A DNA stretch of 29,563 bases from a virus, in the IMG/VR virus record IMGVR_UViG_3300010403_000174, positions 1-29,563 of that record, one strand, 5' to 3'. The position numbers and the translations under genes are program-made. Below the pieces are notes generated by a model that was given only the letters and a program-made list of their open reading frames with translations, made no database searches and had not been told where the DNA came from. Below are positions 3,334 through 29,563 of the stretch, in pieces; position 1 is the stretch's first letter; each line of letters starts with the position of its first letter.

Positions 3334-3357
3334 ATAATGACTTCATTCTATAAAATG

Positions 3358-11603: not shown

Positions 11604-12021
11604 TATCGTCTCTATGTTTTTGAATCAAATCACGAAGCTGATCAGTAGAAACAATATCACGAACTTCAATTAAAACAATGTCATTGATATCACACCATTG
11701 ACGCTTACGTTCATCGCGTACTTTTGATTTTTCAAATCCACTCTTGTCTCCATGAAAAAACTTATTAAATTCGTCATGTTGTGTTCCCTGAAATTCAAAC
11801 GCCAAATTATGGTGTGGTAAATAAAAATCTACAAATAGTCTTTCTTCTGGAATACCAAATTCCTCAAGAATAAGAGTTTGCATACCATATATAGATTTTA
11901 ACATACGTCCTAGATTATACTGGCCAATAGATTTTGATTGTGATCTTGACCGCATAGGAAATCGACTTGGCAAAATCTCTAATCTAATTTCTCTATTATT
12001 CAGCGTCTTGAATTTCATCAA
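11596..12021 (-). CDS. VSR-like endonuclease-fold protein
   Basis: A 141-aa protein with the compact restriction-endonuclease-like core of VSR/EDxHD-type enzymes. D65 lies in FVDFYLPHHN, E76 and Q78 in AFEFQGTQH with H82, and then a basic stretch KVRDERKRQWC (100-110) precedes a strand with IVLIEV. Proteins of this pattern include VSR mismatch nicking enzymes and some free-standing homing endonucleases. Here it sits between recA and the helicase with overlapping ends (26 nt with recA, 8 nt with the helicase), so a stable role in recombination or repair, such as nicking or branch cleavage, is more likely than a recent homing insertion. Two adjacent ATG codons (12021, 12018) could start it, without a strong Shine-Dalgarno. 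Fold fairly sure, substrate unknown. Confidence 0.75.
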   Translation of the reverse strand: MMKFKTLNNREIRLEILPSRFPMRSRSQSKSIGQYNLGRMLKSIYGMQTLILEEFGIPEERLFVDFYLPHHNLAFEFQGTQHDEFNKFFHGDKSGFEKSKVRDERKRQWCDINDIVLIEVRDIVSTDQLRDLIQKHRDDNG

Positions 12022-14165: not shown

Positions 14166-14825
14166 TCATAGATATTCAAGTTGTAGATAGTAGGCAAAGT
14201 TAATCTTGCGTCCTGCGGCAGTTGGAGTTCCACTTACAATCAAATGGAAGTCATGTACGTGAGCAGTCCCATTTTGTGCATTCAAAGACAATGCAGATCC
14301 GCTACTATCAATATTTTGCCAAGATGAATTTCCAGCAAATCCTTGAGTGTCTGGAAGTTGGGCAGCTTTAATAGTAATACCCGTATTTACCAAATCACTA
14401 ATATTTGGAGCACCAGAACCGGCTATCAAATTAATAGCACGAAATGTGGCATTCTGGGTAATGACGGCTGAGCCATTGGGCTCGGTAAATCTACATAATA
14501 GAGTACCAGAATTTTGAGGAATATTAGCCAATCCTGCTGTAAATGAAACACCTGAAACACTGGCTGTACTTGCACCAGTAAATTTGACATTGATCATAGT
14601 GCCAAAATCAACACCAGTTTCATCACAACGATGTGTACGGTCTTGATATTGTCCAACTATAACAGCACTAGTGGGGGCACCATTTGATCCAAAAAATCCC
14701 ATACGATTGGGATTATTTGTAGCACCAGCTTCCAAATTGAAAATTTCAAGATTAGGAGTAGCACGTCCTGCTGGAGTACCTCCCATTGCTCCTGAGCATG
14801 CAAAAAAACGAATTCCACTTACCAT
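14166..14825 (-). CDS. Putative structural (tail/decoration) protein, 219 aa
   Basis: The last gene of the virion module, beta-rich, with many Gly, Ser, Thr and Asn residues and no signal peptide or transmembrane segment. It carries seven Ser-Gly dipeptides in 219 residues, the bias shared by the other virion proteins here. Its C-terminus FAYYLQLEYL (210-219) follows the same alternating aromatic/hydrophobic pattern as the ends of the 186-aa and 213-aa proteins, so it may be a distant relative. ATG 14825 is preceded by GGGA seven bases upstream. A TTTAGTGTA-type motif lies 84 nt upstream and a strong terminator follows, so it can be made from its own transcript. It is probably a small tail or fibre-associated protein; the exact function is unknown. 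Confidence 0.68.
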   Translation of the reverse strand: MVSGIRFFACSGAMGGTPAGRATPNLEIFNLEAGATNNPNRMGFFGSNGAPTSAVIVGQYQDRTHRCDETGVDFGTMINVKFTGASTASVSGVSFTAGLANIPQNSGTLLCRFTEPNGSAVITQNATFRAINLIAGSGAPNISDLVNTGITIKAAQLPDTQGFAGNSSWQNIDSSGSALSLNAQNGTAHVHDFHLIVSGTPTAAGRKINFAYYLQLEYL

Positions 14826-14909
14826 AGTTTTATCCCATCAAACGTGGGCAACTATCCCCAATGGAGAACGTCTAACCCATACTGCTATGGCAAAATACCA
14901 ACGCACGTA

Positions 14910-14922
14910 GAAATACACTAAA
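14910..14922 (-). promoter_or_regulatory. Candidate phage promoter motif, copy A (TTTAGTGTATTTC)
   Basis: The minus strand reads TTTAGTGTATTTC, sharing TTTAGTGTA exactly with copies at 25658-25670 and 25963-25974. It contains the TAG stop of the 699-aa gene (14918-14920) and lies 84 nt upstream of the 219-aa gene. The repeated intergenic position suggests a phage-specific promoter or RNA processing site. Confidence 0.5.
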
Positions 14923-17017
14923 TAGGCATGTCGAGCATTTCTCTTCTGCCCAATCCAAGTGATGTAATATTTGTCTCCATTCTAGAAATAGCGGCGATTT
15001 CCCATGTATTAGCAGCCTCCTCTATTCTCAATATATATAATGCACCATTTGTTCCTAATGAATTATACCATAGAACAACTGCATAGACTCCATCTTGAAC
15101 ATTTGCATTTCCTGTAACTTCAAATATGTCCAAGATATTACCACCGTTAGCAAATCCTACATAAGGAGCACCATTGATACTTTTCATAATACCATATGTA
15201 ATGGTACCAACCTGTGGTGTATTGCCCGTGTTGTCATATGGTTCTGTACCATCAACAATTGTTGTTGGAAAGATCCCACTATTCAAAGCAAGACCTGCTG
15301 AACCATCATCAAATATAAATTGCTGACCACCAATAGTTACTCCTCTAGGTTTTGTTATTCCACTAGAGAATGGAACGATATATTTATTGATATACTTAAA
15401 TGTAGAATCAAACTTCCAATAACCAAATCCTACAGTGCTACCATTAGATACCCAATATTCTGCATTGGTTGGATCATACCACATATCATTAAAAGTGTCT
15501 GCATCCGCGAGAGGAAATTGATTTGTAATATTTGGTTCAGTCACATCTGATGTGCTAGTAATAACGGCTGTTAAATCTAACATATCATTATAATGTCCAA
15601 CTCTGCATTGTCCAGAACTGCTTGTGAATGGAACCTGAATTGTAGGATGAAGACGATAAATAGTATTAGCGGCAGATCTTGTAAGGCCAACTGTTGTTGA
15701 CCAATTACTACTTGGCGTTACTGGGAAGGCACCAAAACTTACAGTAGAAATAAATGGAGTTTGATCTGCATAACGTACCCATAATCTATGTTTTGTAAAT
15801 GGAGATAATACTGCTAATCCAGATGGTAATGCAGAACTTATTGTTGATGAACAGTCCAAAATCCAAATAGTTTCATCAAAAATATGATAACCAAGATTAG
15901 CTGTTGTAGTAGTTGATCCTATTTTTGTAGCATCTGTTCCAATACCACTTGGCCAATAGAATTCTAATCTTGGCCAGAAGCTCATTTTACCTGATTCTAT
16001 TGTTGTATTAGGAAAATTTGTAAATCTATTTATTGCCGCTATACGATATACACCCGATGTTTGTGCAGTAGGATCAGCAAAAATTCTAGCTCCAGACATA
16101 TTGCCGCCCAAATGTACAGATCTAAGTCCTTGAGATACAAAAGTAAAATCAGTAGATGATGTATCAAAAATGTTGCCATTTCTGTCTAGATATAGTTTTG
16201 TATCATCAAATAATACATAACCATCTAATCTAATATCTCCAGATGATACGTGTTGAATATTATAATCATTATGAGTTCTTAATGATGCTGGTTCACGGCC
16301 AGTTAGCCCAATTAATGAACCGTCTGTTTTTTGAAATGCTGGAAAAATAGGAAACTGTTGTATATTGAATGTATCTTCTGTATTATTGACTCTTCTGCCA
16401 TGCATAGTATCAAATGCTATACGAGCAATATGTGGCGGTGGATTGAACATTACTTCTGCGAAGTCAATATCATAAAGAACACCAGATGATCCTAACACAT
16501 CCAATGCCATATAGTCTACTATTCCAGTCTCAGATGGAAGTCTATGATACCACTGTCCTATAACATTCGCAGAAGTATCGGGATCTAATGCAAAATAAAA
16601 TCCACTAGGGCTTTCTGGATATAAAGACTGTAACCATGCGGCACGATATTCATATTGATCTAAATCAGTATCATTATCATAAATCTGAAAAAGTGTATTG
16701 AGTGCAATTCTTGTTTCTTCAAGATGATCCAATATAAATGCACCAGCAGGATAAAATGTATTACCAAGAGTTGATCCATCTATCTTTGGTTCATATGGAC
16801 CGGAAGGAGCAATGATCGGATTTACATATATATTAAAATCGGATAAAAAATGATTGCCACCAGCAGATAATTTGTTCCATTTTCTTATTTCTGCCGTAAT
16901 AATAAATTGTGCTTGTTCAAGCAAAACACCAGAAATACCAATAGGAATTGGCAAGGACGCAAATCTATGTCCACGATTTGCATATTCATAAGGTATTGTA
17001 CCTGACTGTAGTACCAT
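14918..17017 (-). CDS. Putative tail/baseplate-associated structural protein, 699 aa
   Basis: A large beta-rich protein without a family I can name. Its ATG overlaps the stop of the hub-like gene by one base (TAATG). The N-terminal part has SLPIPIGISGVLLEQAQFII (22-41), then a long acidic, aromatic middle. The C-terminal half contains stretches of propeller-like character (GYWKFDSTFKYINKYIVPF, then GGQQFIFDDGSAGLAL). It has about 14 Ser-Gly dipeptides. There is no coiled coil, signal peptide or enzyme motif. Its place between a hub-like protein and a small virion protein, downstream of the tape measure, fits a baseplate, tail-tip or fibre component. Virion role fairly likely, exact role unknown. 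Confidence 0.7.
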   Translation of the reverse strand: MVLQSGTIPYEYANRGHRFASLPIPIGISGVLLEQAQFIITAEIRKWNKLSAGGNHFLSDFNIYVNPIIAPSGPYEPKIDGSTLGNTFYPAGAFILDHLEETRIALNTLFQIYDNDTDLDQYEYRAAWLQSLYPESPSGFYFALDPDTSANVIGQWYHRLPSETGIVDYMALDVLGSSGVLYDIDFAEVMFNPPPHIARIAFDTMHGRRVNNTEDTFNIQQFPIFPAFQKTDGSLIGLTGREPASLRTHNDYNIQHVSSGDIRLDGYVLFDDTKLYLDRNGNIFDTSSTDFTFVSQGLRSVHLGGNMSGARIFADPTAQTSGVYRIAAINRFTNFPNTTIESGKMSFWPRLEFYWPSGIGTDATKIGSTTTTANLGYHIFDETIWILDCSSTISSALPSGLAVLSPFTKHRLWVRYADQTPFISTVSFGAFPVTPSSNWSTTVGLTRSAANTIYRLHPTIQVPFTSSSGQCRVGHYNDMLDLTAVITSTSDVTEPNITNQFPLADADTFNDMWYDPTNAEYWVSNGSTVGFGYWKFDSTFKYINKYIVPFSSGITKPRGVTIGGQQFIFDDGSAGLALNSGIFPTTIVDGTEPYDNTGNTPQVGTITYGIMKSINGAPYVGFANGGNILDIFEVTGNANVQDGVYAVVLWYNSLGTNGALYILRIEEAANTWEIAAISRMETNITSLGLGRREMLDMPI

Positions 17018-20000
17018 TATACGAATCTAGCAAATGCTGGTTTCACTATCTCAATAAAGTTTACCGCTGCTGTTCCTCCAAACAAACCGCTTGGAACTGT
17101 TGCTGTGGCAAGATAACCTCTATCACCTGATGCAGCAAATTGTGCGAATGGAATTGGAACAACATTTGTAAATAAACTACCAGATGAAGAAACTTGTCCA
17201 TTGATATCAAGTATTCTACAAGATGCTCGTGCTGTTGTTAAACCTTGATTACTTAATGAAATAATCTCTACTGGTGTAATACCCGCTGCCGAAGATGTTG
17301 TACCATTAACAAATATGGTTCCATTTGCATTTCCAGGTTTAACAATTGCATCACCTTGTGCAGCGAGTGTAGTTCTATCTCCAACATTAACCGTACCATT
17401 CAATACTGGTAAATCAAAAATAGCACGAACAGTTCCATGAAGAGATGCTGTTGGATCTATAATAGTAACATCATAATTAGCTGGATTAACAGTGCTAATA
17501 CGAGCAATCTGAACTATTGTTCCATTAGCAAATGGTCTGCCCTGGGTAAAGAATCTAACAACCAAATGTCCATTTGGTAGCCTATATTCATCAGTATGAT
17601 ATATAGCTTGATCACCAATGTTCAAGAATCCATCAATACAAATTGCACCTTCTCTAAAATCAATATTAGATGAGCTTAGTGCTAGTGGTGGTTTCAAATA
17701 TCTATGCTGATCTATACCACGATAACGTTCGTCTACAGCGGCTCCAGCTAAACTTGAAAGAGTGAAGACATTATTTATCTCTGATATCGTTACACGAATA
17801 GCATTCTGTTCGCCATCAAAAAAGATTGGTGGTGCAGATGTATCACCAGGAAGCAATGGATTATTAGGAACACCAGGATTTGGATTTAGTAATTCCAAAT
17901 CAACAAAGTCAATTGGATTCAAAATACCATTAAGCTGAGCACGAACTCTCTCTCCAAGAGGAGCTTCACGTCCAAATTTAGGGTAATAAGATTGAATCTT
18001 ATAACGTGTCACAAATCCTTCAATACTAAATCCAATATTAAGTTCACTAACACCATGAGAAATTTCGCCATATAATCCAGATGGACCAATATTTTGTTCT
18101 GCGAATGAATCAAAAGACAATAGAGGTAATCCAATTTGCTGGAAATCAGAATATCTAGAAGAGCTATTTGGTACGATCTTTCCTTGAACGCGACGAATTG
18201 CTCGATCCGTCATAATCTGAAGCGATGTTTGATTTCCTTCTGGTGAAAATGCCCAAGGAACAAACTGATCGTCTAGTTGTACATCTTCATGTCTTTCATA
18301 GTGAATGCTGCCCAATACCCATTGACTTGGATAAATTTGTCCATAGCGTAAACGTGATTGTACTGGAATAGCAACGCCTGAAAGTGAATCATATACATTG
18401 AGAACTTGTGCCGGATTAATAATGTCAACAAGACCAGATCCAGTCAAATTGTTGACCGTTGTAAGCATTGTTGCTAAGTTGAAAATAACTCCATCATTAA
18501 CTATACCACCAGATGGACCAGCATTAATTGGTAATTGACATAGAAGAGTTCCTTTAGGGTAAGATTCAAATCCATAAAGATCTGCTTCGCTATGTGGATC
18601 GATAACACGTTCTCCAACATCTTGTAATGTAACGGGAATATAGTGTCTACCATCACCACTTGGATTAAATGGAGGTGCATCTTCTGTCCAGTTGGCAAAA
18701 CTTGCTGGATTATCAACACCAAATGGACCATATACAGTGTCTTTTGGAAGAACACAATATCCGCGAATACGAAAATCTTGAGTTACGAATGGACTAACAG
18801 GACCAAGAGCACGATTAATTTCATAGTCTTCATAAAAAACACCACTGGCAGTAACAGTTCCAGATGGTGATAATGTATAGCCCTCTACTTGATTTTCAAC
18901 ATTAGCCCATGCAGCATCAATTAGCTGGAAAAGTCCAGAAGCTTCATTATATAATAATCCTTGAACAACATAAGAACGTCCATAATGACGCGATGCATGA
19001 TCATGTACTCTATTGTAAAAATCAAGAACCCAATTTTGATCTTGATCTCTACGATTACTAATAACTCTTATGCCAGATTCAGCAGCACCAGTTGCCATGC
19101 CAGCAATTGGCATGTTTGGATCAAGACGACTTTGAAACGACGGATCTTGTGCGGCAATAGATCCAGCGTCAGGAGGTAATCCATATCCTGGTGGGTTTGC
19201 GGTTCCACTTGCTGTTTGATAAATCTTATAATATGTCCACTGTTCTATACCACCAAGTGACAGTTGAAGTTCTTTTTCGGTAGGAATGTATGTGCGGAAG
19301 AATCCGTCCGCGTCATAAAATCCAATACTTAGCTTATCCCATGCTTTGGCAAATACAACGTGCCCATCAAGTGCAGATGTATCTAATCCATCTATTGGAC
19401 TTAAAAGCTCTGAATTGACGAAGCCCTCTTGGTGACCTCCCATTACACGGAAACGAGTTGGATCTGGAACAACGTCTTGACCAAATCCAATTTGTTTTGT
19501 TTCGTTTAATCCAGAAACACTTCCAAATTGGGATACCAGATTAAGTATATCAGACTCAGAAATATCAAATACAACCTTTTTATTGATAAGATTAACTCTT
19601 TGTGCATCCATATTCCAATACCAGTCATATCCGGTATCTAGTAGAATACGAGAAAGAACCTCATCAAGGGTGTCCAAATTGAATTGGAATCTTATTGCAG
19701 AAATAGTTCCACCGATATTTTTTTCAATTTGTTCTACTGTTGGTAGAATAGATATCGGAATAAAGCAATTGCCTTCATTATATGTTAGATCAATTGCCGC
19801 CAAAATTTGTGCATATGTACCACCGAATTGTAGAATACGATCATATTCCTTTACAAGCGGTTCAGAAGGATTGCCATTTATGTCTTCAAGACCATTCAAA
19901 ATACGGAATGCTCTTGCAACAGACACAATGCCGCTTGGAATACTTTGTCCTAAATCTTCTGTATGTATTTTTACTCTTCTAAGTATTCTACGATCATCTT

Positions 20001-20349
20001 CAAGAACAACATTAACTATAGTTCCACCAACGCTTGATGTATAGTCAGAGTGTACAACACTACCACGGAAATAAAAATCACCAATAAAAACTTCTAATGA
20101 TTTGCCAATTTCTGGCAATTGTCCACTGGCACCATGAAATGAATCTGCGTCTCCACATGGAATCCATTCTGTTTGAAGATTGTGTGGATTAACATTGAAA
20201 CCAAATGTAGCATTGGCTGATGATAGGAATGCACATAGTTGTGAACCAGGAATACCAGAACCAAATTGTCCTGAGGGCCATGCAATTCCATTTAACGGAA
20301 CTCCAACTCCGCTAACTACTATGCCATTAGATACTATTATTCCACCCAT
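17017..20349 (-). CDS. Putative baseplate hub / tail-tip protein, 1110 aa
   Basis: A very large beta-rich protein. Residues about 80-130 (PEIGKSLEVFIGDFYFRGSV, then a strand pair GGTIVNVVLEDDRRILRRV) have the pattern of the tube-like first domain of tail hub proteins (gpD/gp27 type: short strands, FxGxV, then a strand ending in a basic turn). Around residues 220-260 an ILLDTGYDWYWNMDAQRVNLI segment fits the next hub subdomain. The rest (about 300-1110) holds long beta-rich stretches with repeated SG turns and a late segment (IVQIARISTVNPANYDVTII) that may form small OB- or sandwich-like domains. It starts three bases after the stop of the LamG protein and overlaps the 699-aa gene by one base. 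The hub assignment is inferred from pattern and gene order. Confidence 0.65.
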   Translation of the reverse strand: MGGIIVSNGIVVSGVGVPLNGIAWPSGQFGSGIPGSQLCAFLSSANATFGFNVNPHNLQTEWIPCGDADSFHGASGQLPEIGKSLEVFIGDFYFRGSVVHSDYTSSVGGTIVNVVLEDDRRILRRVKIHTEDLGQSIPSGIVSVARAFRILNGLEDINGNPSEPLVKEYDRILQFGGTYAQILAAIDLTYNEGNCFIPISILPTVEQIEKNIGGTISAIRFQFNLDTLDEVLSRILLDTGYDWYWNMDAQRVNLINKKVVFDISESDILNLVSQFGSVSGLNETKQIGFGQDVVPDPTRFRVMGGHQEGFVNSELLSPIDGLDTSALDGHVVFAKAWDKLSIGFYDADGFFRTYIPTEKELQLSLGGIEQWTYYKIYQTASGTANPPGYGLPPDAGSIAAQDPSFQSRLDPNMPIAGMATGAAESGIRVISNRRDQDQNWVLDFYNRVHDHASRHYGRSYVVQGLLYNEASGLFQLIDAAWANVENQVEGYTLSPSGTVTASGVFYEDYEINRALGPVSPFVTQDFRIRGYCVLPKDTVYGPFGVDNPASFANWTEDAPPFNPSGDGRHYIPVTLQDVGERVIDPHSEADLYGFESYPKGTLLCQLPINAGPSGGIVNDGVIFNLATMLTTVNNLTGSGLVDIINPAQVLNVYDSLSGVAIPVQSRLRYGQIYPSQWVLGSIHYERHEDVQLDDQFVPWAFSPEGNQTSLQIMTDRAIRRVQGKIVPNSSSRYSDFQQIGLPLLSFDSFAEQNIGPSGLYGEISHGVSELNIGFSIEGFVTRYKIQSYYPKFGREAPLGERVRAQLNGILNPIDFVDLELLNPNPGVPNNPLLPGDTSAPPIFFDGEQNAIRVTISEINNVFTLSSLAGAAVDERYRGIDQHRYLKPPLALSSSNIDFREGAICIDGFLNIGDQAIYHTDEYRLPNGHLVVRFFTQGRPFANGTIVQIARISTVNPANYDVTIIDPTASLHGTVRAIFDLPVLNGTVNVGDRTTLAAQGDAIVKPGNANGTIFVNGTTSSAAGITPVEIISLSNQGLTTARASCRILDINGQVSSSGSLFTNVVPIPFAQFAASGDRGYLATATVPSGLFGGTAAVNFIEIVKPAFARFV

Positions 20350-20352
20350 GTT

Positions 20353-23300
20353 TTATTGTCCAGATAGATAATCATTACCAGCCGCTAATGAATCACCCCA
20401 AATTACACCACGAGAATCACGCACAACCCAAATTGGTTTATATATTCCTGGCTCAGTATAAACATGAGTTGGATTGAATGTAATTGTAGATTGTCCATCG
20501 TCGAAATTCAAAAGACTTGCTGTTATTGCAACGCCAATGGGCAATTGATCTATTGTGGTTGTAAAATCAACCGTCAAGGCAGTATTTCCAGAACGAGGAA
20601 CGCCAGATAGACTAACAATTACAGGGCTAATTCCAGAAGTAGCATTAATAATACGTATTGCAGATCCATGAATTCCATTTGAATCTATAGCTTCAAATTT
20701 CGCAATAAAAAATCCACTAGCCGCATAATAATGTTGAACGGGATATAGACCTGCTCCACTTTCAGCAACACTTACTGTAGGTGTCAAATCTCCAAATGTC
20801 CAGCGTGTTTGTGTTATTGTCTTGCCCTGAGTTCCAGACGCGGCACCAATAAAGTATTGATTTTGTGGCATAATAATACCACTAACTGTTGAACTAGGAA
20901 CAATTATATCTACTATTGGTCCTGTTTCTGCTTGGAAAATAACAACCTTAGCATCAAAATCAGATGATACTGTTTTACGAATTGTTAATTGAGAATCAAA
21001 ATCTTTGGCGGCAAAAGCTTGTACAACAAAGCTGCCATCAAATTGCATACTATTACGAAGACCACCAATTATATATCCACCAATGACACCGCTAACGATG
21101 TCAGATCCACGAATAAATCCTCCAATTATTCCTGATGCGGCATCGGAACCACGAATATAACCACCAATTATACCAGATACATCAGTTTGAAAAATTACAC
21201 CAGAAACATATCCACCAATTATACCAGATACATCAAATGCCGCAAAATTCAAACCTCCAATAATACCTGATACTGTATCTAATCCTCTATTATAGCCACC
21301 AATGATACCAGATGCTACATCAGATCCTAGAATGTATCCACCTATAATGCCACTACAAACGGTTCCAGTTGCACCATCAATTCCATTCTCTGCTATATAA
21401 CGAACTTCTGGTTCGGTCAATGCTTTTGAGAAATAGAAAACGTCTGTAATTACAGAATTCTCATCATTCAAACTAGATGCACTGAAATCCCATGGTGAGG
21501 CGTTCGAAGGAGAAAAGAAGGTTATCATTCTGGCTGCTGGATTTACTGGAACTATTGGATTTAGTCCAGATGCAGGACCACCATTCAATGGATCAACAGC
21601 AAATTTGACATCCTTGCTATCTACTTCTTGTCCATTGATGTAACACTTCAATACTTTTTGTGTAGCATTATATGTCCAGCAGGCATGACTCCAAAAGTCT
21701 AATCTAGGTGGTCTAGGCATACCAAACAAATAACCAAAACGTGTTAAGTCTTCATAAATACTATCTGCTTCAAATGTTCCACATACTATTTGACCAGATT
21801 GTGCTGCATTATTTGTATTAGCAAGATAACCATTACCACCAAAAGACATAACCATTTTGATGTCATTACCTTGATCGGTAACTATATTCCACCCTCTATT
21901 GAAATCATTAGTTGTACTAGTAATGGTATTTTCGCCAACTATACCATATGTCAATAAAGATTCAGCCGTACTTGCAGATGGAGTAGTTCTCTTAGCTATC
22001 AAGAAACCAACAGAAAAACCATCTTGAGGATTATTAAAGGCGTTGCCCGAAACAGCAAATGGTGGAGTAATACTTGCTGCACCAGCAGATGAGCCAGTGT
22101 AACTTAGTCCACTGCATTGAACTAATAAATCAGAATTCTTTAATGGTCCTGGCAAGAATTTGAAAGAACGTGACGCCTGTGTTGATGCACCAGCTCTATT
22201 CTTTTGTTCACTTAATGGAGTTAGATGATGAGCTTTCAAACTCAAGTCCGTAGTTCCAGAACCGCCACCATCAAGACCATTGAATCTCCAGTATCCTTGT
22301 AATGAAGCGTCTGTAATGTTAACTTGTGTTTTAGATAGTGTAGATGTGTATCCAGCAATAGTTGGATTTTGAATACCACTTGTTGCTAATGCTTCAACTT
22401 CTCCTTTTTCAAAAACTCCACGCATTAGGAATATTTCACGCATGTAAATATCGCCTAATCCACCGTCTCTTGATATCTTAGTAGCTATCGAATCATTACC
22501 AGCTTCTCCACCAAATTCCAATAATAAGTCATCTCCGGTACTATCTGGAAGAGCATCAACCCAAACTTTAGCTGTCGCAGCAGTTAAACGGCGTCTTTGA
22601 ACCAATACGCCATTAATATATAAAGATACGCCAACTGGTGTTACACCAGCAGTATCGGCTGCAACATTATATGGAGCGTCAAATTTTGTATGGAAAAGAA
22701 TTTTGCTTGGAATACCAAATGGCAATACTCCAGATACAAGACCAACATAATTAGCTGCCGAAAATGTTCCTGTTCGTGAAGCAAATACTATGGTTATGCC
22801 GGAACCTTGGCCAGCATTAACGGTTGTCAAGAAAGAACGCAACTCTCCATCACTAGAGCTATCAGCTAAATTTCCGTACAAAGATAGTGTTGAATTGAAT
22901 TCAAACTTGGTATTATCACCAGTTAATCCAAATGGTGTAGATGGTATGGTTCCACTAGGTGTAACTTCAAATCCAAGAACAAATTCTCCAATAATATTTT
23001 GTGGAGTCGTATTATTTCTTTCATTTACTGGTTTATATCTTTGAGTAAAATTGCTAATAGAAGATCTAGCAGAAAGTGCATCACCAACGTTTGCGGTTCC
23101 AGGACTCAATCCATGTACACCGAAAATACCAGATGTAATTCCAAGAACGCCATAGCTATCTAGTGCCGCTGGTGTAGTGCGTGTATTGAATGGATTAATG
23201 CCAATATTACCATAATATGCACTCCATTTTGTTGTTGTTTCGCCACGAGTAAGATTTCCTGGAAACTCGTTCCATGGTCTAGCACGATCTTCAACAATAA

Positions 23301-25152
23301 CATCATCTAATTTATAATCTGAACATGGCCAATAACCAAGTAGACGTGGATCATATGGTGTACGCCATGTAGCTGTTGTATCAATTCCACTTTGTGCCAC
23401 ATACATAATTTCTTCTGGAAGCAATGCACGTCCCATAATCAATACAGGACCAAACAACATATCTTGGCCACCAGCAGCATTCACTCCGTGTGATGTACTG
23501 TCAACAACTGAATCTGATATACCATTAGTGAACATAAGCGGGAATCCACTACCAGCAAGTTTAATAAGATGGTCGGTAAGTGAAAATGCTATTGTCCCAC
23601 TTCCTTGAAGATGGCCATCCAGATAGAGTGCAATTCCCCTTGTTCCATCATCATAAGCAACGGCATAATGATGCGATACGCCACGGAAAAAGCCGCTTGT
23701 TGCACCATCGATATTAAAAACGTTGTCCACTATGTTTCCTAATGGATAAGCAGAGAAACGCATTCTATTTGGAGTATTTATTTCTGTCAATGCCATACCA
23801 AATGAAAATGCACTTACTGCTGTTGGTGCTCCAGCACCAACGGCTGAAACAGATCCCATAGAAAAAATCATATTGTGGGGACGACCAAGATTAGTAGTTG
23901 GTCCAGCTATAACACCAATTGTCCAACTACGAGAATTCAACATATCATATAATAGACCACTGCTCGTTGTGATACCATCAGCAGTATTCGTGCCATTTTG
24001 TAATAATGCACCAGCACGATACGGACCAGGAACAGGAACATAATGAGCAGTAGGCCCTTCATCTTTAGGAGCAAGTAATGGTCTATGATTTTTTGTTACA
24101 TCCGCATATCCAACAGATCTAAATGGATAATATGCCAGTAATTGTGAATCTGTTAGTTCAACCTTAATGGGATGTTTTATATTATCTTCCAATGGTTGAA
24201 GTGTTGAACCATTATGTAGATCAAGAATTTCACCCTCATGTAATACACGTCTAAATAAGTATGCACCAGATACTAAATGGTTCCATCCAGATGTGCCATT
24301 ATAGTTATTGGTATCAGAACCAACATTATTACCACCGCCAATAGCAAGAGCACGAGTAATAAGTGTTGCATTACCAAGACTTGTTGAACTGCCACCGCCT
24401 GCGGCTGTGGAGACTGTTCCACTTGCGGCCAAACGACCGTTCTTATAAAGAACAATTTCGTCTGCTAATCCATTAATGTAGCGGAAGGTAAATGTTAAGT
24501 GTGTATAACATCCTGATTCAATTGGTGTACGAATAAGCGTTGGTGTGGCATTATTTTTGTCTATGCTTAGAAAAGCGGTTAGTTGATTATTATCAACAAC
24601 AGAATTAAATTGGGCTCCACCATTCAAACTGCCAGAAACTCCAAGTTGCCACCCACCTGTAGAGTTGAATGATTTTTGTGTAAATAAGCAATGACAACGT
24701 ACTGCTTCTATATTAATATCAAATGCACCATTGGCATCAGCATAATAATTTAAATATCCATTACTATTAGGATAAACCCAAATACCAACAGTAATTCCAC
24801 TATTAACAACGTTGGGAGCTAATGTTTGTTCTCTGCTTTGAGAGCATCCATTTCCCATTACCAGATACTTACTATATGGCGAAGAGTCAGCACCAAGTTT
24901 CCAATATCCTTGAACCATATAACCATTGTATGTTACACCAGATTCAGGATTAAATACACTTGCTGTTCCTGGCCATACAGACTTTACCTGTTCTTGAGCT
25001 TCACTTTCAGCTTGTGCAACATGGAAGTCAAATGAAATACCACTGGGTTGACGAGATCTAGCTGGAGAGTAATTCAAAAAGATCGGAGTACCGCTAGGTT
25101 CATTAAGCGGCCAGAGTCCAATTAGCGATCCATCATTTAGAAAATTAGCCAT
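20353..25152 (-). CDS. Giant multi-domain adhesin-like tail protein: four LamG-like modules, SGIIGGY repeats, PKD-like domains
   Basis: A 1599-aa protein, probably a tail fibre or receptor-binding component. Four LamG/concanavalin-like modules each open with a related strand: SLIGLWPL (9-16), QLLAYYPF (337-344), RLLGYWP (603-609) and SLQGYWRF (950-957). Each closes with a related helix/strand such as FRRVLHEGEI, MGRALLPEEI, MRGVFEKGEV or FSKALTEPEV. Typical LamG strands (ALYLDGHLQGSG, SLYINGVLVQRR, KCYINGQEVDSK) lie inside. Residues 1267-1364 are seven SGIIGGY repeats. The C-terminal part has two PKD-like domains (WTFGDLTPTVSVAESG with VQHYYAASGFF; LNFDDGQSTITFNPTHVYTE with a VVRDSRG end). 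LamG and PKD domains usually bind carbohydrates or act as spacers. It overlaps the 153-aa gene by eight bases. Virion location is inferred. Confidence 0.85.
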   Translation of the reverse strand: MANFLNDGSLIGLWPLNEPSGTPIFLNYSPARSRQPSGISFDFHVAQAESEAQEQVKSVWPGTASVFNPESGVTYNGYMVQGYWKLGADSSPYSKYLVMGNGCSQSREQTLAPNVVNSGITVGIWVYPNSNGYLNYYADANGAFDINIEAVRCHCLFTQKSFNSTGGWQLGVSGSLNGGAQFNSVVDNNQLTAFLSIDKNNATPTLIRTPIESGCYTHLTFTFRYINGLADEIVLYKNGRLAASGTVSTAAGGGSSTSLGNATLITRALAIGGGNNVGSDTNNYNGTSGWNHLVSGAYLFRRVLHEGEILDLHNGSTLQPLEDNIKHPIKVELTDSQLLAYYPFRSVGYADVTKNHRPLLAPKDEGPTAHYVPVPGPYRAGALLQNGTNTADGITTSSGLLYDMLNSRSWTIGVIAGPTTNLGRPHNMIFSMGSVSAVGAGAPTAVSAFSFGMALTEINTPNRMRFSAYPLGNIVDNVFNIDGATSGFFRGVSHHYAVAYDDGTRGIALYLDGHLQGSGTIAFSLTDHLIKLAGSGFPLMFTNGISDSVVDSTSHGVNAAGGQDMLFGPVLIMGRALLPEEIMYVAQSGIDTTATWRTPYDPRLLGYWPCSDYKLDDVIVEDRARPWNEFPGNLTRGETTTKWSAYYGNIGINPFNTRTTPAALDSYGVLGITSGIFGVHGLSPGTANVGDALSARSSISNFTQRYKPVNERNNTTPQNIIGEFVLGFEVTPSGTIPSTPFGLTGDNTKFEFNSTLSLYGNLADSSSDGELRSFLTTVNAGQGSGITIVFASRTGTFSAANYVGLVSGVLPFGIPSKILFHTKFDAPYNVAADTAGVTPVGVSLYINGVLVQRRRLTAATAKVWVDALPDSTGDDLLLEFGGEAGNDSIATKISRDGGLGDIYMREIFLMRGVFEKGEVEALATSGIQNPTIAGYTSTLSKTQVNITDASLQGYWRFNGLDGGGSGTTDLSLKAHHLTPLSEQKNRAGASTQASRSFKFLPGPLKNSDLLVQCSGLSYTGSSAGAASITPPFAVSGNAFNNPQDGFSVGFLIAKRTTPSASTAESLLTYGIVGENTITSTTNDFNRGWNIVTDQGNDIKMVMSFGGNGYLANTNNAAQSGQIVCGTFEADSIYEDLTRFGYLFGMPRPPRLDFWSHACWTYNATQKVLKCYINGQEVDSKDVKFAVDPLNGGPASGLNPIVPVNPAARMITFFSPSNASPWDFSASSLNDENSVITDVFYFSKALTEPEVRYIAENGIDGATGTVCSGIIGGYILGSDVASGIIGGYNRGLDTVSGIIGGLNFAAFDVSGIIGGYVSGVIFQTDVSGIIGGYIRGSDAASGIIGGFIRGSDIVSGVIGGYIIGGLRNSMQFDGSFVVQAFAAKDFDSQLTIRKTVSSDFDAKVVIFQAETGPIVDIIVPSSTVSGIIMPQNQYFIGAASGTQGKTITQTRWTFGDLTPTVSVAESGAGLYPVQHYYAASGFFIAKFEAIDSNGIHGSAIRIINATSGISPVIVSLSGVPRSGNTALTVDFTTTIDQLPIGVAITASLLNFDDGQSTITFNPTHVYTEPGIYKPIWVVRDSRGVIWGDSLAAGNDYLSGQ
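21061..21354 (-). repeat. Protein-coding tandem repeat: seven SGIIGGY units
   Basis: Ninety-eight codons hold seven units of 14, 14, 14, 17, 14, 14 and 11 residues, each starting with SG(I/V)IGG(Y/L/F), most followed by a variable xRGSD-like part. Codons differ between units (AGT, TCT, TCA and AGC for the same Ser; GGT, GGC and GGA for the same Gly), so selection acts on the protein rather than on the DNA repeat. The array connects the last LamG module to the PKD-like region. Confidence 0.93.
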
Positions 25153-25606
25153 TGTATTCCATGATTACATAATCGCCAGTGAATGGAGAAACTCTATAAC
25201 GTTTAATAACATTTCCACCACCATCTAAAATGTCAAGGTTAACAAAAATATGATGTGCATTTTGTAGCGGACGACTAGCTATAAACCATTGAGTAGTTTT
25301 ACCTTCCATGTCTAATGGATAATATTCATGAACATAGCAATGCAAATCTGCCTCTGTCCAATTTTCTGGAGATAAAATTCCTTTTCCTTCAATAAAATTA
25401 TCGTTAGATATAAAAGCTCGAAAAATAGAAAGAGGAAGGTTAAGTATCACTCCTTCATGAATCATAACTTCGTTTACGGCTGTTCCACCCAAACGGAATG
25501 TTTCGCCGTCTTGCTTTGTGCAGCTAATGACGTGCGTAGAATCAAAATGCGTGAGCACTTTGAGAGAGCCTATATTGCCCTCGTATTCGAACGAAGCAAT
25601 TACCAT
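25145..25606 (-). CDS. Hypothetical virion-module protein, 153 aa
   Basis: The first gene of the unit that follows the 25675-25698 terminator. AAGGA stands seven bases before ATG 25606, and a TTTAGTGTA-type motif lies 51 nt upstream. Its stop overlaps the start of the giant LamG protein by eight bases, so the two are probably translationally coupled. The protein is beta-rich (EYEGNIGSLKVLTHFD, LGGTAVNEVMIHEGVILNL, HHIFVNLDILDGGGNVIKR), with no membrane segment, coiled coil or enzyme motif. The tight coupling suggests a small structural partner, chaperone or adaptor of the LamG protein. I do not recognise the family. Confidence 0.68.
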   Translation of the reverse strand: MVIASFEYEGNIGSLKVLTHFDSTHVISCTKQDGETFRLGGTAVNEVMIHEGVILNLPLSIFRAFISNDNFIEGKGILSPENWTEADLHCYVHEYYPLDMEGKTTQWFIASRPLQNAHHIFVNLDILDGGGNVIKRYRVSPFTGDYVIMEYNG

Positions 25607-25657
25607 AGTTTAATCCTTACACCAAAGACTAAGCCAAAATAGCTATGTCTCAAAAGA

Positions 25658-25670
25658 GAATTACACTAAA
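25658..25670 (-). promoter_or_regulatory. Candidate phage promoter motif, copy B (TTTAGTGTAATTC)
   Basis: The minus strand reads TTTAGTGTAATTC, starting in the last bases of the terminator T run and lying 51 nt upstream of ATG 25606. It shares TTTAGTGTA with copies A and C. A promoter directly after a terminator would reset transcription for the unit beginning with the 153-aa gene. Confidence 0.55.
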
Positions 25671-25698
25671 AAACGAGGCCCGTCATTGGACGGGCCTC
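25668..25698 (-). terminator. Rho-independent terminator after the 61-aa gene
   Basis: A perfect 10-bp stem, GAGGCCCGTC with GACGGGCCTC (25675-25684 and 25689-25698), has a 4-nt loop. On the minus strand it is followed by GTTTTTT (T run 25668-25673). It starts 24 nt after the stop of the 61-aa gene, the same distance as the 14118 terminator from its gene. Confidence 0.92.
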
Positions 25699-25721
25699 AT
25701 CGATATCAGGCTATCAATTAC

Positions 25722-25907
25722 TCAGCTAAGCAGAGTAAATGGCTCGCCAGCAGATACACCAACACCAAGGTTGTTCACAGAGTCGATTAGAGCACCGCGA
25801 GCAAACGATCCAGACTTACGATCTGTATGCGTTTCAAGCTTTGTGTCTAAGCTCCACAAAACAATGTTGGCATTGTTAGTGCTGCTTGTAAAATTAAATG
25901 TTGCCAT
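25722..25907 (-). CDS. Small, probably highly expressed virion-module protein (61 aa)
   Basis: A 61-aa protein beginning MATFNFTSSTNNANIVLWS. ATG 25907 is chosen because a perfect AAGGAGG stands five bases upstream; an ATG at 25970 would add 21 unlikely residues that cover this site and the leader. It lies between a leader with strong secondary structure and a terminator 24 nt after its stop, so it can be transcribed alone. A strong ribosome site, a private promoter motif and a terminator usually mark an abundant product, such as a small decoration or tail-associated protein. It has no cysteine, membrane segment or known motif. Gene call firm, role unknown. Confidence 0.78.
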   Translation of the reverse strand: MATFNFTSSTNNANIVLWSLDTKLETHTDRKSGSFARGALIDSVNNLGVGVSAGEPFTLLS

Positions 25908-25912
25908 ATTGG

Positions 25913-25963
25913 CCTCCTTGAAGATCAAACGTTTGACTAGTTGGGTATCAAGACCCAAACTAG
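25913..25963 (-). promoter_or_regulatory. Structured 5' leader and perfect Shine-Dalgarno of the 61-aa gene
   Basis: In transcript order: a hairpin with 10 paired bases and one bulged T (CTAGTTTGGGT, loop CTTGAT, ACCCAACTAG; 25963-25937), directly followed by the 12-bp perfect palindrome TCAAACGTTTGA (25925-25936), then AAGGAGG (25913-25919) and CCAAT before ATG. No T run follows the hairpin, so it is not a terminator. It may stabilise the mRNA 5' end or, as DNA, bind a dimeric regulator. Confidence 0.6.
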
Positions 25964-25974
25964 AATACACTAAA
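25963..25974 (-). promoter_or_regulatory. Candidate phage promoter motif, copy C (TTTAGTGTATTC)
   Basis: The minus strand reads TTTAGTGTATTC, containing the TAG stop of the 213-aa gene (25970-25972), 55 nt upstream of ATG 25907. It shares TTTAGTGTA with copies A and B. Two of the three copies embed the stop codon of the upstream gene. Confidence 0.5.
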
Positions 25975-26611
25975 ATGTTAGAAGGTAGTCATTAGAGAAG
26001 TAATTAAACACTAATCCAAAACGTAATAATCCAGATCCACAAACACCAAAACCTCCAAACGGAAACCCGAATGGCAAAATGAGATTCATATATACAAACT
26101 CAGATGAGTTTAAATCATCCTGTCCAACCAAAGCAGGACGCCCATCTTGGCGATGTACATTTTGTGTGCTTGGAATAGTCGTCGTCAATCTTTGTACTGA
26201 ACCTGAGGAAAGAGTAAGGTTGTATCTCCAAAGATTTCCACTAGGTGCATACTGAACAAAACCTGGGCCACAGCCATTCCAAATTCCAGGCTTTAAAGCT
26301 GTATCGTCTATAAGAAACAACCCCATGTCTGAAACACCAACACCACTATTAGCAAGATTAAATGTAATACATGCAGGTTTAGATGCTAAGTGAGAAGGAA
26401 ATGGAGTAGAGGTTAAATCAAATTTTGTACCTTCAAATATTAAAGTACCAGAAGTTGTTCCTGGATTCATAGGATCTGCTATTTGACATCCAGATGCTAC
26501 CATATATTTGAAAGCAAATGAACCACCAGGAATATTACGATTCCCAACAGGGCTTGCTATTTCAGCAACATCCCAAGCAAAAATTCGTATTAAAGGCGAA
26601 ATTGTTGACAT
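25970..26611 (-). CDS. Putative structural protein, 213 aa (paralogue of the 186-aa protein)
   Basis: A beta-rich protein with two blocks that align without gaps or nearly so to the 186-aa protein two genes upstream: residues 93-110 (VSDMGLFLIDDTALKPGI) and the C-terminal strands 170-206 (starting SEFVYMNL, ending with an R-F-G-L-V-F-N-Y pattern). The distance between the blocks is also almost equal (about 60 residues in each). It carries six Ser-Gly dipeptides. AAGGA and AGAAGAA precede ATG 26611, which overlaps the 60-aa gene by 22 nt. It is probably a small beta-sandwich tail, baseplate or fibre protein that arose by duplication. Confidence 0.7.
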   Translation of the reverse strand: MSTISPLIRIFAWDVAEIASPVGNRNIPGGSFAFKYMVASGCQIADPMNPGTTSGTLIFEGTKFDLTSTPFPSHLASKPACITFNLANSGVGVSDMGLFLIDDTALKPGIWNGCGPGFVQYAPSGNLWRYNLTLSSGSVQRLTTTIPSTQNVHRQDGRPALVGQDDLNSSEFVYMNLILPFGFPFGGFGVCGSGLLRFGLVFNYFSNDYLLTF

Positions 26612-26772
26612 AGTTCTTCTTGTTCCTTTGCTGACACTGGCATAAAGCGTCCAGCAAAACGTCGTGCAAATATCACTTTATTATCAAATGTAATAACGTA
26701 GATGCCAGCAGGAAGTTGTTTTTCTTCTGGCTCTCCATTCTTTCGTAATACAATATCGTTAGCTGAAGTCAT
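26590..26772 (-). CDS. Small hypothetical protein (60 aa)
   Basis: A 60-aa protein starting MTSANDIVLRKNGEPEEK, with GIYVITFDNKVIFARRF (24-40) as a strand pair and a helical, charged end (SAKEQEELCQQF). ATG 26772 gives a 14-nt overlap with the 186-aa gene. The frame stays open to an ATG at 26838, but that would overlap the 186-aa gene by 80 nt with a low-complexity leader. The Shine-Dalgarno is weak, so coupling to upstream translation is likely. It lies between two paralogous structural genes. Function unknown; it may be an adaptor of these proteins. Confidence 0.6.
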   Translation of the reverse strand: MTSANDIVLRKNGEPEEKQLPAGIYVITFDNKVIFARRFAGRFMPVSAKEQEELCQQFRL

Positions 26773-27319
26773 ATAATAATCTATATCTAAATGTACCAGC
26801 CCCAGCCCCACCTTTTGTTCCAATAGGCACAGCAACATTTGCCTCTATTGCTAAATATACATATTGACTTACATCTATATCTAATATTCCACTCATCCAT
26901 GGTTGACCTGATTGCCAATATGGTGTTTGTATTGTACCAGAAAAATTTGTATTAGTGGGCACATTTGTTGGAGTATTATCTGCACTAGAATTTAAAGACA
27001 AATTAGGAATGAAATGTAGACTTTTTCTTTCCAAAAATCTAGAAACACCAGCAGTAAATGCAGATGTATTGGTTAAGAAAAATCTCATATTATAAACACC
27101 ACTTGCATCACCCATGCTTGAAATACGAGCATATGCTAATTTCGTATCACTTATAGCACCCGATCCTGTAGTATTAATATTTCCAAAATCTAAAACACCA
27201 CCAGCACTAGTATCAATGTTTCTAATATAGCCATTTACTACTTGTTTAAGATGACGAAATCCAGATGGATCAATAGATAAACTTTGTTGAATCCATTCTA
27301 CTGAGGGAAAGTTTACCAT
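26759..27319 (-). CDS. Putative structural protein, 186 aa (paralogue of the 213-aa protein)
   Basis: A beta-rich virion-module protein. Residues 75-92 (VYNMRFFLTNTSAFTAGV) and the C-terminal strands 151-186 (starting SQYVYLAI, with a G-rich turn and ending YRLLYDFS) are alike in sequence and spacing to the 213-aa protein. It carries six Ser-Gly dipeptides in 186 residues and an Asn/Thr-rich loop (about 110-127). AAGGA precedes ATG 27319 by nine bases. It starts one base after the 505-aa gene ends. A small receptor-binding, baseplate or decoration protein is plausible; no named family is recognised. Confidence 0.7.
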   Translation of the reverse strand: MVNFPSVEWIQQSLSIDPSGFRHLKQVVNGYIRNIDTSAGGVLDFGNINTTGSGAISDTKLAYARISSMGDASGVYNMRFFLTNTSAFTAGVSRFLERKSLHFIPNLSLNSSADNTPTNVPTNTNFSGTIQTPYWQSGQPWMSGILDIDVSQYVYLAIEANVAVPIGTKGGAGAGTFRYRLLYDFS

Positions 27320-27320
27320 A

Positions 27321-28838
27321 TCACAAAGTCCTTAATGTAATAGTAGAACCAAGAGTCTGTACTGTTGCTAGATCAACAGTAAATGCAAGTTCTAATGTAG
27401 CGTTGCAACTACGATCAATATCATTATTTTGTTGATTCAAGCCAACAATACGAATTGTGATATAATTAGCTGGATTAGCATATATAGCCTTCAATCTATT
27501 TAGTTCGCTTTGTACAAATTGAATCGCTAAATTAGTATCATTGTTTGTATTGCCAGTATTTTTAGCAATGGCCTGACATTGAATACTAATTGAACCATCT
27601 GTAGTTGTCTTAATATCCTGAATAATACTTCCAAGACGACGAAATGGAATAGCGTGGCTGGCTTGTATTCTTGTTCCTTCTACAACATTAACATTACATG
27701 TTCTGCTAGCAATACCACTTGGAAGATATGCTGCGGGATTATCAGTATAAGTAATAGAGAAATCAATAGAGCCATGACATTTATTTTGAGATATAGAAAA
27801 TGCCGTAGGATTATTAAGTGCAAGTCCGCTACCACCAGCACCGCCACTACCAATCTTAAATCTACCATATATACCAGATGCGGTCCATGGTAATTGAGGT
27901 CTTACATAATTAGCAAAACCAGATGCGGCTCTGAAATATCCAACTCCACCTTCTGCATCTAATGGTGTTAATGTGCGTCCAAGTCCTTGTACGGTTCCAG
28001 CAATAGTAACTTGTGCTATACCATTCTGATCTTCTTCAAATGATTCAGTTTTAGAAGTAAAATAGAATGGCACTCCACTTACTATGGTAAATTGTTCTGT
28101 AACAGAATAACTACCATTTGCTATATCAGCAACTTCTTCACGCTGTACAGACACTTCAAATACAGGGCCACCAGCAGGATTTGAAGGATGTGTCATTCCA
28201 AACAAACCAGAGAAGTTTGGTTGGGCAAAATATGGAATATCGATAGGTAGTTTGTCTATACCAAGTAATGGTTTTACTGCTGCCATTGCCTGATAAAATT
28301 TATCAGATTCCCCCTCGACGCCTTCAGCACTTACTTGGTGAGTTACCTTAAGTGTACAGCTATCTTGATCTTCTCTAAATGACCATTGATTACTTAGACT
28401 AGAAGTAACGCCACTAACACCAGATGCAGCAATAAGATCTTGTAATTCAACAGTCCAATCAAATCTTGTAACTTGTACATCTGGGGCAATATTTATACTA
28501 TTAACTCTTGGACGCAATCCAGAAGAAATAATTGCACCAAATGGCAGTGTTCTATTACCTGGACCAGCCAATATAACAAGGTCTTTATAATCAACTGAAA
28601 ATGTATCGCGTAAAGCTTGTTGCTTTACATACATCTGTTCATAACTACCAGATGGAACAATAAGCGTTGTACCTGTCAATGTAAGTCGATTGATATTATC
28701 TACACGACTTCCATCATTTCTAAATTGTGATTCAACGGCCCATTCAATTAATGGAGCGGGCACTATCTTAGCACCATTATAGAATACCTCAACTGCTGAT
28801 TGAGGCGGACGACTAACTATAGAAATTAAGTCTCCCAT
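27321..28838 (-). CDS. Putative tail/baseplate structural protein, 505 aa
   Basis: A 505-aa protein immediately downstream of the tape-measure gene (2-nt gap), the usual place for distal tail, baseplate or tail-initiator proteins. It is almost wholly beta-rich, with many SG turns (about twelve). The N-terminus has ISIVSRPPQSAVEVFYNGAK (6-25) and a strand with RFDWTVELQDLIAASG (124-139). The C-terminus (ATLELAFTVDLATVQTLGS) ends in repeated strands. Several segments (RLTLTGTTLIVPSG; QVTIAGTVQGLGR) look like sandwich domains. No enzyme motif is seen. Placement supports a tail tip or baseplate component; the residues alone do not name a family. Confidence 0.72.
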   Translation of the reverse strand: MGDLISIVSRPPQSAVEVFYNGAKIVPAPLIEWAVESQFRNDGSRVDNINRLTLTGTTLIVPSGSYEQMYVKQQALRDTFSVDYKDLVILAGPGNRTLPFGAIISSGLRPRVNSINIAPDVQVTRFDWTVELQDLIAASGVSGVTSSLSNQWSFREDQDSCTLKVTHQVSAEGVEGESDKFYQAMAAVKPLLGIDKLPIDIPYFAQPNFSGLFGMTHPSNPAGGPVFEVSVQREEVADIANGSYSVTEQFTIVSGVPFYFTSKTESFEEDQNGIAQVTIAGTVQGLGRTLTPLDAEGGVGYFRAASGFANYVRPQLPWTASGIYGRFKIGSGGAGGSGLALNNPTAFSISQNKCHGSIDFSITYTDNPAAYLPSGIASRTCNVNVVEGTRIQASHAIPFRRLGSIIQDIKTTTDGSISIQCQAIAKNTGNTNNDTNLAIQFVQSELNRLKAIYANPANYITIRIVGLNQQNNDIDRSCNATLELAFTVDLATVQTLGSTITLRTL

Positions 28839-28840
28839 AT

Positions 28841-29563
28841 TTATCTCGACTGTCCAAATGAGTTAATAAGACCACGTTCATTCAATGCTTGGAATACTGG
28901 ATCTAATTGAACCATCAAAGTTTCAAGCTGTTGTGCAACTTGCTTATTAGTTGTTTCTGCAAGAGCTTGCTTTAATTGATCACGCAGATTTTCAAGCCCC
29001 GTAATCTGAACGGTATTGTTCTGATTTGTTTGGAGCGTAATCTTAATCTCTTGACCGGCAGGAGCAGCGACCCCTGTAGTCTTTCCAGTTGTTGTCGTAG
29101 TAAGACCGGCGGTATTTGTCTTAATAGCCAAATTAGAATCACGCACTTGATTTAAACTGCCATTAAGATCTGTTAATAATCCAGCAATTTTGTCTAATGC
29201 GTCTTCATTACTTCCACCAGCTTTAAGCTGTGAAAGAGAATTAGTAACAGAACGGGCAATAGCAGCAACCATTGTTTGATCGATACTACGTATGTTATTG
29301 ATGCTTGCAGCAATAGAAGTTCCAGTATCATTTCCGCCTGCAAAGTTGTGATACATAGGTATAATTGCTTCACGAGTATTTGCAACAGCTAATTGAGCAC
29401 CATTAGGCATTGCTTTCTTTTCTCTAGCGGCAGCATGCAATATTCCAGCGGCTTCACTTGTTGTCAAATTACCACCAGCAAAGTTGGGTATAAACCCCTT
29501 TGCTTGATTTTGGAAGCTTTGAATGTTATTGAATGTATTCAATGAAGTCTGAGCTTCTATAGC
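28841..29563 (-). CDS. Probable tail tape-measure protein, C-terminal fragment
   Basis: The frame is open to the right edge, leaving 240 visible C-terminal residues. It has the motif AKGFIPNFAGGN (21-32) and a second NFAGGN at 73-78; GF(I/V)PNFA-type motifs recur in tape-measure and related tail proteins of large phages. The middle is rich in Ala, Ser, Asn and Thr (LTTTTTGKTTGVAAPAG), and the end is helical with a likely coiled coil (GLENLRDQLKQALAETTNKQ, then VAQQLETLMVQLD). It is followed within two bases by the 505-aa gene, the expected order for tail length and tip genes. The N-terminal part, which would show length and membrane segments, is outside the window, so this stays a strong inference rather than proof. 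Confidence 0.7.
   Translation of the reverse strand, partial: AIEAQTSLNTFNNIQSFQNQAKGFIPNFAGGNLTTSEAAGILHAAAREKKAMPNGAQLAVANTREAIIPMYHNFAGGNDTGTSIAASINNIRSIDQTMVAAIARSVTNSLSQLKAGGSNEDALDKIAGLLTDLNGSLNQVRDSNLAIKTNTAGLTTTTTGKTTGVAAPAGQEIKITLQTNQNNTVQITGLENLRDQLKQALAETTNKQVAQQLETLMVQLDPVFQALNERGLINSFGQSR

Follow-up and report, generated by a model that had tools for sequence, protein, structure and literature searches.

A conserved 14-residue SG(I/V)IGG repeat array in a predicted phage tail-tip adhesin and a Ser-Gly constraint across the tail proteins of its lineage

A predicted tail-tip adhesin of a large, uncultivated phage carries a real and conserved tandem array of short units with the core SG(I/V)IGG(Y/L/F), which appears to define a family of compact repeats that is missing from the libraries searched by us. 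The protein is encoded by an open reading frame of 1599 amino acids (20353-25152, minus strand) in a virus record of 29,563 bases, which was analysed over its whole length and is here called the window. The array occupies residues 1267-1367 (21052-21354, minus strand). Its seven units start at residues 1267, 1281, 1295, 1309, 1326, 1340, and 1354, that is, with spacings of 14, 14, 14, 17, 14, and 14 residues, and position 7 of the unit is Y in five cases, L in one, and F in one. The preliminary description of this DNA had recognized the seven units. Its period of 14 residues applies to five of the six spacings and not to the one of 17. The span given there, 21061-21354, is right at the high end and nine bases too short at the low end, where the last unit extends to 21052.

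The array did not arise by chance, since SG[IV]IGG is rare when the window protein is shuffled: 1996 of 2000 shuffled sequences had no copy and the other 4 had one. Between the units, pairwise differences in the 7-codon core amount to 0.11, 0.14, and 0.56 at codon positions 1, 2, and 3, and this concentration at the third position supports the protein-level constraint that had been proposed. In comparison with six relatives the array as a whole has a pN/pS of 0.30-0.36; against the same relatives the LamG part of the protein gives 0.24-0.34 and the PKD part 0.17-0.20. The constraint lies in the core positions, while the unit as a whole is held no more strictly than the LamG part and more loosely than the PKD part. 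A constrained core with a free remainder is as expected for a repeat in which one side of the unit faces inward and the other outward. One could also regard the array as a functionless, neutral tandem duplication of DNA, and in one relative (L006:4351-4791) the stretch GFSALDVSGVIGGY of 14 residues indeed stands twice in a row, as compared at the protein level. The third-position bias between the units, together with the core and register that are kept across relatives, makes this reading very improbable. We take the tandem copy as a sign that units probably turn over by copying. In the same relative the fourth unit has 14 residues rather than 17-18.

Loss of the array in close relatives, which the preliminary description had named as a check, is not seen. 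Six close relatives (67-73% identity, aligned over nearly the full length) all have seven units. The pattern search that was proposed along with it was run as a two-unit scan of viral contigs and found 27 stretches. They are spread over 26 contigs of 17-183 kb, those of the six close relatives included, and each stretch has the motif pair in an open frame. The corresponding scan of genome contigs gave 12 stretches, only one of which is the same gene (L038, on a contig of 157,945 bases in a Hydrogenophaga MAG). The other eleven were judged by the frame of the motif, without alignment to the window protein: in five (L035, L039, L040, L044, and L046) the SG..GG motifs lie in seemingly unrelated frames, and in the remaining six no frame with the motif was found.

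We compared 20 array segments, that is, the window and 19 relatives. The spacing is nearly always 14, with one other spacing in 7 of the 20 (15, 17, 17, 18, 18, 18, and 28); the spacing of 28 is caused by a unit which starts with NG instead of SG. In a profile of the 159 units from these segments, position 3 is I, L, or V and position 4 is I, L, F, or V, position 7 is Y or F with a frequency of 0.84, and Gly reaches 0.92 at position 5, 0.99 at position 6, and 0.83 at position 10. The composition at positions 1, 2, 5, and 6 depends in part on how the units were selected, as the script admitted only S at 1, G at 2, G or A at 5, and one of G, A, S, and M at 6. The greatest variability is seen at position 9 and at positions 11-13. 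The segments fall into two main length classes about three units apart, with eight segments of 146-151 residues (alignment A4) and eleven of 186-189, in addition to one of 179; arrays have seven to ten units. Alignment A3 comprises 12 segments, ten of 189 residues, one of 186 which starts at the edge of its locus, and the one of 179. Three distant members (L016, L018, and L032) have a less regular spacing and stand outside the 20 segments. Alignments A3 and A4 omit these three, L029, and near-duplicates, and alignment A2 omits L005, L008, L014, and L023 as near-duplicates of rows that were kept.

From the N- to the C-terminus the protein consists of LamG lectin-like domains, the array, three FDx repeats, and PKD-like domains. 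The LamG or concanavalin A-like lectin region covers residues 1-1258 (21379-25152, minus strand) with about four domains. Three stretches match Laminin_G_3 (PF13385) above the Pfam cut-off of 27.6 (61.3 bits, E = 1.5e-16), and a further LamG-type domain may be placed at about residues 940-1258, where the predicted model resembles lectin-type jelly rolls (Z of about 18-19, rmsd of about 3 over about 200-220 residues). This domain dominates the fold-match list of the 660-residue model, in which clostridial neurotoxins and their kin appear with their binding domains. We read this list as the common jelly-roll lectin fold and not as kinship to the toxins. The FDx repeats, FDGSFVVQAFAAKD, FDSQLTIRKTVSSD, and FDAKVVIFQAETGP, span residues 1371-1412 (20917-21042, minus strand) and directly adjoin the end of the array. 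Each has 14 residues and starts with FD, and the FD columns are mostly invariant or nearly so in the alignments of the relatives. The equal length suggests that the array and the FDx repeats may form one continuous register with an altered consensus. The PKD domain at residues 1516-1583 (20404-20607, minus strand) matches PKD_4 (PF18911) with 42.7 bits (cut-off 27, E = 5.8e-11), and two such stretches are counted in the protein. With both domains above the Pfam cut-offs the window protein resembles other LamG/PKD multidomain proteins. It differs from them by the array and the FDx repeats in between, for which no Pfam family above the cut-off and no PHROGs family was found in the window protein.

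In five distant records with a match the alignment runs only from residue 1218-1235 to near the C-terminus, with 32-39% identity. As the LamG part is not aligned in these records, the block of array, FDx repeats, and PKD-like domains is the conserved core; the LamG part was apparently either swapped or has diverged. We note that two distant tail homologues, G010:C1:100184-101350 and G012:C1:62373-65624, each continue across a single stop codon (TGA and TAA, respectively).

The preliminary description knew of no named domain with this repeat, and our searches of Pfam, PHROGs, and PDB sequences agree. The array gave nothing above the cut-off in Pfam, its best match among PDB sequences (E = 0.068) is taken for chance, and the window protein has no match in PHROGs at E ≤ 0.1. 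Fragments of the relatives (residues 940-1599) match PHROGs weakly, in at most 2 of 25 members, with a best E of 0.01 to phrog_8510, a virion structural protein. A full-length profile has as its sole PDB match the PKD-type domain of ColH (E = 0.069). A tblastn search of 50,697 phage records (INPHARED) found no match to the window protein at E ≤ 1e-3, nor any to its neighbour of 1110 amino acids or to a glycosyltransferase of 600 amino acids from the window. Thus, it appears that the lineage has no isolates among these records.

Structure prediction places strands with a period of 14 in the array in both AlphaFold models. The first model (residues 940-1599 with 24 relatives) has short strands in most units, located at SGII and at YI(x), with ten-residue means of pLDDT between 44 and 67 over the array. 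The second, of a ten-unit relative alone, has means of 55-70; in the first half of its array a single long strand is called, and clean 14-residue units are confined to the second half. Over most of the FDx stretch pLDDT is under 50 in both models. The array, for which disorder had been named as a check, is therefore modelled as strands rather than as disordered, at a low confidence (pLDDT of about 44-70). Foldseek with the array model has its best PDB match at E = 0.62, with none at E ≤ 0.001 in PDB or BFVD. VIA-align returned several unrelated solenoids: a pectate lyase aligns with a Z of 9.8 and an rmsd of 2.0 over 116 residues, and the highest Z, to the hexapeptide-repeat enzymes LpxD and GlmU, is reached only at an rmsd of about 10 A. 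No Foldseek E-value is significant. We do not claim that the array is related to YadA, pectate lyases, or pentapeptide repeats. The beta-solenoid of the preliminary description is plausible only, with the modelled strands of period 14 in its favour and the Foldseek result against it. With moderate confidence we regard the array as a beta-solenoid-type repeat and leave the family unnamed.

Among known repeats the head of YadA-type adhesins (Hep_Hag) comes closest in period. Work on this family gives its canonical motif as GxNSVAIGAxSxAx, with a conserved Gly at position 8 (PMC9543794), and the array shares with it the period of 14, the Gly-containing beta repeat, the adhesin context, and the change in length by whole repeats, which the same work proposes for BpaC/BoaC (PMC9543794). 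If the array were such a left-handed parallel beta-roll, it would form a trimer. The best rotation of the motif aligns Gly with Gly and shares Ser, Ile, and Gly with the published one, and the three-residue insertion of the fourth unit then falls, in our own reading, at the site given there for rare loop insertions (PMC9543794). However, 3872 of 5000 shuffled motifs score equally well, so the match is not significant. Hep_Hag in Pfam does not match at E ≤ 1, YadA heads were looked for in the PDB Foldseek and VIA-align fold-match lists and are absent there, and the array differs from a YadA head in that it belongs to a phage protein and is flanked by LamG and PKD domains. We consider a YadA-like roll improbable.

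We suggest instead that the array is a stiff, narrow, beta-solenoid-like spacer within a phage tail-tip adhesin, a reading to which we give even chances. The spacer would connect the variable LamG lectin-like domains with the FDx repeats and PKD-like domains, which together make up a conserved block at the C-terminus. One unit would correspond to one coil, with the Gly pairs and the I/V/L positions as packing core and with position 9 and positions 11-13 pointing outward. The length would then change by about whole units, and the arrays of the relatives do differ in this way, as expected if a unit is a coil. The reach of the lectin domains could thereby be adjusted through the number of units without breaking the fold. 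The location at the tail tip is inferred from the gene order after the tape measure. The related genome G001 starts this order with portal, major head protein, and tape measure (PHROGs), which are followed by the homologues of the tail-tip genes, replication genes, and a sugar island. This genome of 151,810 bases also has repetitive open reading frames of a VLADGRV type and a LTDRENDVSLKHENHH type towards both ends (L047, L053-L054).

The trait that the array displays in a dense form extends to most of the tail-tip genes of the window (14166-28838), which the preliminary description had missed. In eight tail-tip genes the dipeptide Ser-Gly occurs 103 times where 43.4 are expected, and without the array still 95 times instead of 40.6 (2.3-fold). 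A set of nine window genes for replication and other functions has 11 with 14.6 expected, and the tail genes of control phages have ratios of 1.07 (T4), 1.23 (P-SSM2), 1.30 (SPO1), and 1.20 (T5). At lower window coordinates than the adhesin, three tail-module genes of 219, 699, and 1110 amino acids (14166-20349, minus strand) have 7, 14, and 19 Ser-Gly (2.3, 4.9, and 8.9 expected), and at higher ones three more of 213, 186, and 505 amino acids (25970-28838, minus strand) have 6, 6, and 11 (2.3, 2.0, and 3.9 expected). An open reading frame of 153 amino acids (25145-25606) without Ser-Gly belongs to the eight genes of this enrichment and stands outside the seven genes of the conservation test below. 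Two others, 26590-26838 (82 amino acids, between the tail-module genes, no Ser-Gly) and 28841-29563 (none, 1.1 expected), are outside both tests and enter only the total of the structural module, in which Ser-Gly is the most over-represented of the dipeptides seen more than 15 times (ratio 2.35). Since seventeen codon pairs are used at the Ser-Gly sites, the excess is not a DNA motif. In four distant records with the array (G009, G010, G012, and G013) the open reading frames read, with at least 2.5 expected, have ratios of 1.2-3.3; the exception is one long frame per record (1261-2180 amino acids, ratio 0.6-0.8), taken for the tape measure. A second protein module with frequent Ser-Gly is found at L052:5916-9686 (105.9-109.7 kb of G001) and in L060. 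Two of its proteins carry SGSASLG or SGAASLG near the N-terminus, and one matches head decoration and virion families.

Ser-Gly is also conserved. Outside the array it is kept at 76 of 89 sites against relative G006 and at 81 of 90 against G001. With this it ranks first of 65 dipeptides in the former comparison (0.85, next 0.70) and first of 64 in the latter (0.90, next 0.78), the ranking being made over seven genes for dipeptides with 20 or more sites. These counts exclude the array and all positions with gaps. Against G006, Ser is kept in 77 of 89 cases before Gly and in 122 of 283 otherwise; Fisher p values for this retention are 1e-13 and 7e-10 in the two comparisons, for sites which are not independent. 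At the flanking positions, from -4 to -1 and from +2 to +6, identities are 0.45-0.67 (G006) and 0.71-0.82 (G001), about the overall means of 0.57 and 0.72. In a subset of the array loci comprising 14 relatives, each compared over as many of the seven genes as are present on its DNA, Ser is better kept before Gly in all 14 (0.76-0.96, and 0.38-0.61 otherwise). There Ser-Gly is kept at 0.74-0.96 of the aligned sites outside the array and Gly-Ser at 0.09-0.64. The replication genes do not show this against G006 (Ser-Gly 3 of 11; Ser 5 of 11 vs 97 of 221) and show a small effect, if any, against G001 (8 of 11; 9 of 11 vs 133 of 211). Seven head, tube, and tape-measure frames, pooled between G001 and G006, keep 21 of 27. 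In the tail genes of control phages Ser-Gly is not specially kept (8 of 28 in T4/RB49, 4 of 33 in SPO1/A511, and 2 of 8 in P-SSM2/P-SSM4), but these pairs, with 36-48% identity, are more divergent than ours. The control nearest in divergence, T4 non-tail genes at 61% identity, has no effect either (Ser 10 of 20 vs 98 of 180).

Two adjacent residues which stay fixed while their neighbours drift are what looks, from the alignments, like a minimal recognition site, and the same genomes hold a sugar island. We therefore propose that Ser-Gly may be the acceptor sequon for a modification which the phage itself encodes; the likeliest would be O-glycosylation of Ser by enzymes of the island. We hold this for possible, though on balance unlikely. 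The excess over the control phages and the first rank in conservation with flanks near the average would fit such a sequon, and so would the replacement of Ser by Thr at just 2 of 90 sites against G001. Not enriched, on the other hand, are the major head protein (1 Ser-Gly, 1.2 expected), the portal (5 and 5.0), and the tape measure (8 and 12.1), and the preferences at the sites for Pro, Ala, or Val at -1 and for Ile or Val at +2 could be structural.

The window encodes the glycosyltransferase of 600 amino acids already mentioned (529-2331, minus strand; Pfam Glycos_transf_1 with a C-terminal DUF4214) about 12 kb from the tail genes; for DUF4214 together with a glycosyltransferase our literature search found no paper. 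This enzyme is present in all 8 array records tested, and family matches to Glycos_transf_1 and GDP-mannose dehydratase occur in 7 of 7 viral records. Ten proteins picked for a scan from the island of G001 (80-100 kb, L051) include six glycosyltransferases in addition to a GDP-mannose dehydratase, an epimerase, and a methyltransferase. Yet both families are likewise found in 14 of 14 cellular control genomes, the glycosyltransferase may act on something other than protein, and such islands may instead alter surface sugars of the host or the phage DNA. A scan with the glycosyltransferase gave 73 loci with mainly replication and sugar genes in the flanks, which serve as an internal control with Ser-Gly ratios mostly of 0.8-1.3 (range 0.39-1.91). 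Of the more distant records with the enzyme twelve were compared with the tail genes, and five of these have tail homologues; two of the other seven, G015 and G016, which were partly read, share only the glycosyltransferase and show a weaker excess (totals of 1.68 and 1.32), with several large frames near a ratio of 2 and others not. A link between this enzyme and Ser-Gly is only suggestive. As in the island of G001, the sugar genes of the window (3-2331) adjoin replication genes. By eye, the replication block (2328-13165) encodes a sigma-like protein, a DnaE-type polymerase, a ClpP-like protease, a primase, a DnaB-like helicase, and RecA. The DnaE-like polymerase matches 1350 phage records, all below 60% identity.

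Ser-Gly could as well be a purely structural motif of the virion proteins of this lineage, such as a tight turn or the start of a strand, and carry no modification. We give this somewhat under even chances; compared with a modification site, a lineage-specific structural motif is at least as likely. The residue which follows is I, V, T, or L at 59 of 95 sites outside the array, the dipeptide recurs in proteins of the virion module which by eye have no evident sequence relation to each other, and no modification needs to be assumed. A turn, however, should accept Asn, Asp, Thr, or Gly at its first position, and here Ser is hardly less conserved than Gly, whereas other dipeptides ending in Gly are less kept (0.25-0.73 against G006, 0.33-0.78 against G001). 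Outside the array, loops of the first model contain 8 of 13 serines that belong to Ser-Gly and 30 of 45 other serines, thus no more of the former, and a preference of this kind is absent from the three other phage pairs.

In mycobacteriophages virion proteins are glycosylated by phage-encoded glycosyltransferases. The abstract of one genome announcement suggests capsid glycosylation (PMC11256854). Our lineage resembles these phages in its glycosyltransferases and in the idea of a glycosylated virion, and differs by the proposed constraint on two residues, Ser and Gly. Our literature search turned up no report of a phage virion with a Ser-Gly sequon; given its sparse coverage of subscription journals, this is weak evidence of novelty. 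A modification at Ser-Gly would turn the array into a dense ladder of sites, which is compatible with its role as a spacer and does not exclude it. In its full form the proposal, which we judge slightly less probable again, is that the lineage marks many virion proteins at a two-residue Ser-Gly sequon through a modification system of its own, likely by O-glycosylation, and that the array is a scaffold which presents one acceptor Ser per coil at a fixed spacing, that is, a modified rod.

In summary, the array seems to extend a predicted phage adhesin by whole units. The constraint on Ser-Gly across the tail proteins is the larger surprise and the part which most deserves the attention of specialists. 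If Ser-Gly is a modification site, many virion proteins of these phages would carry a sequon that can be recognized from the sequence alone, and the sugar islands of large uncultivated phages would be tied to a testable target on the particle.
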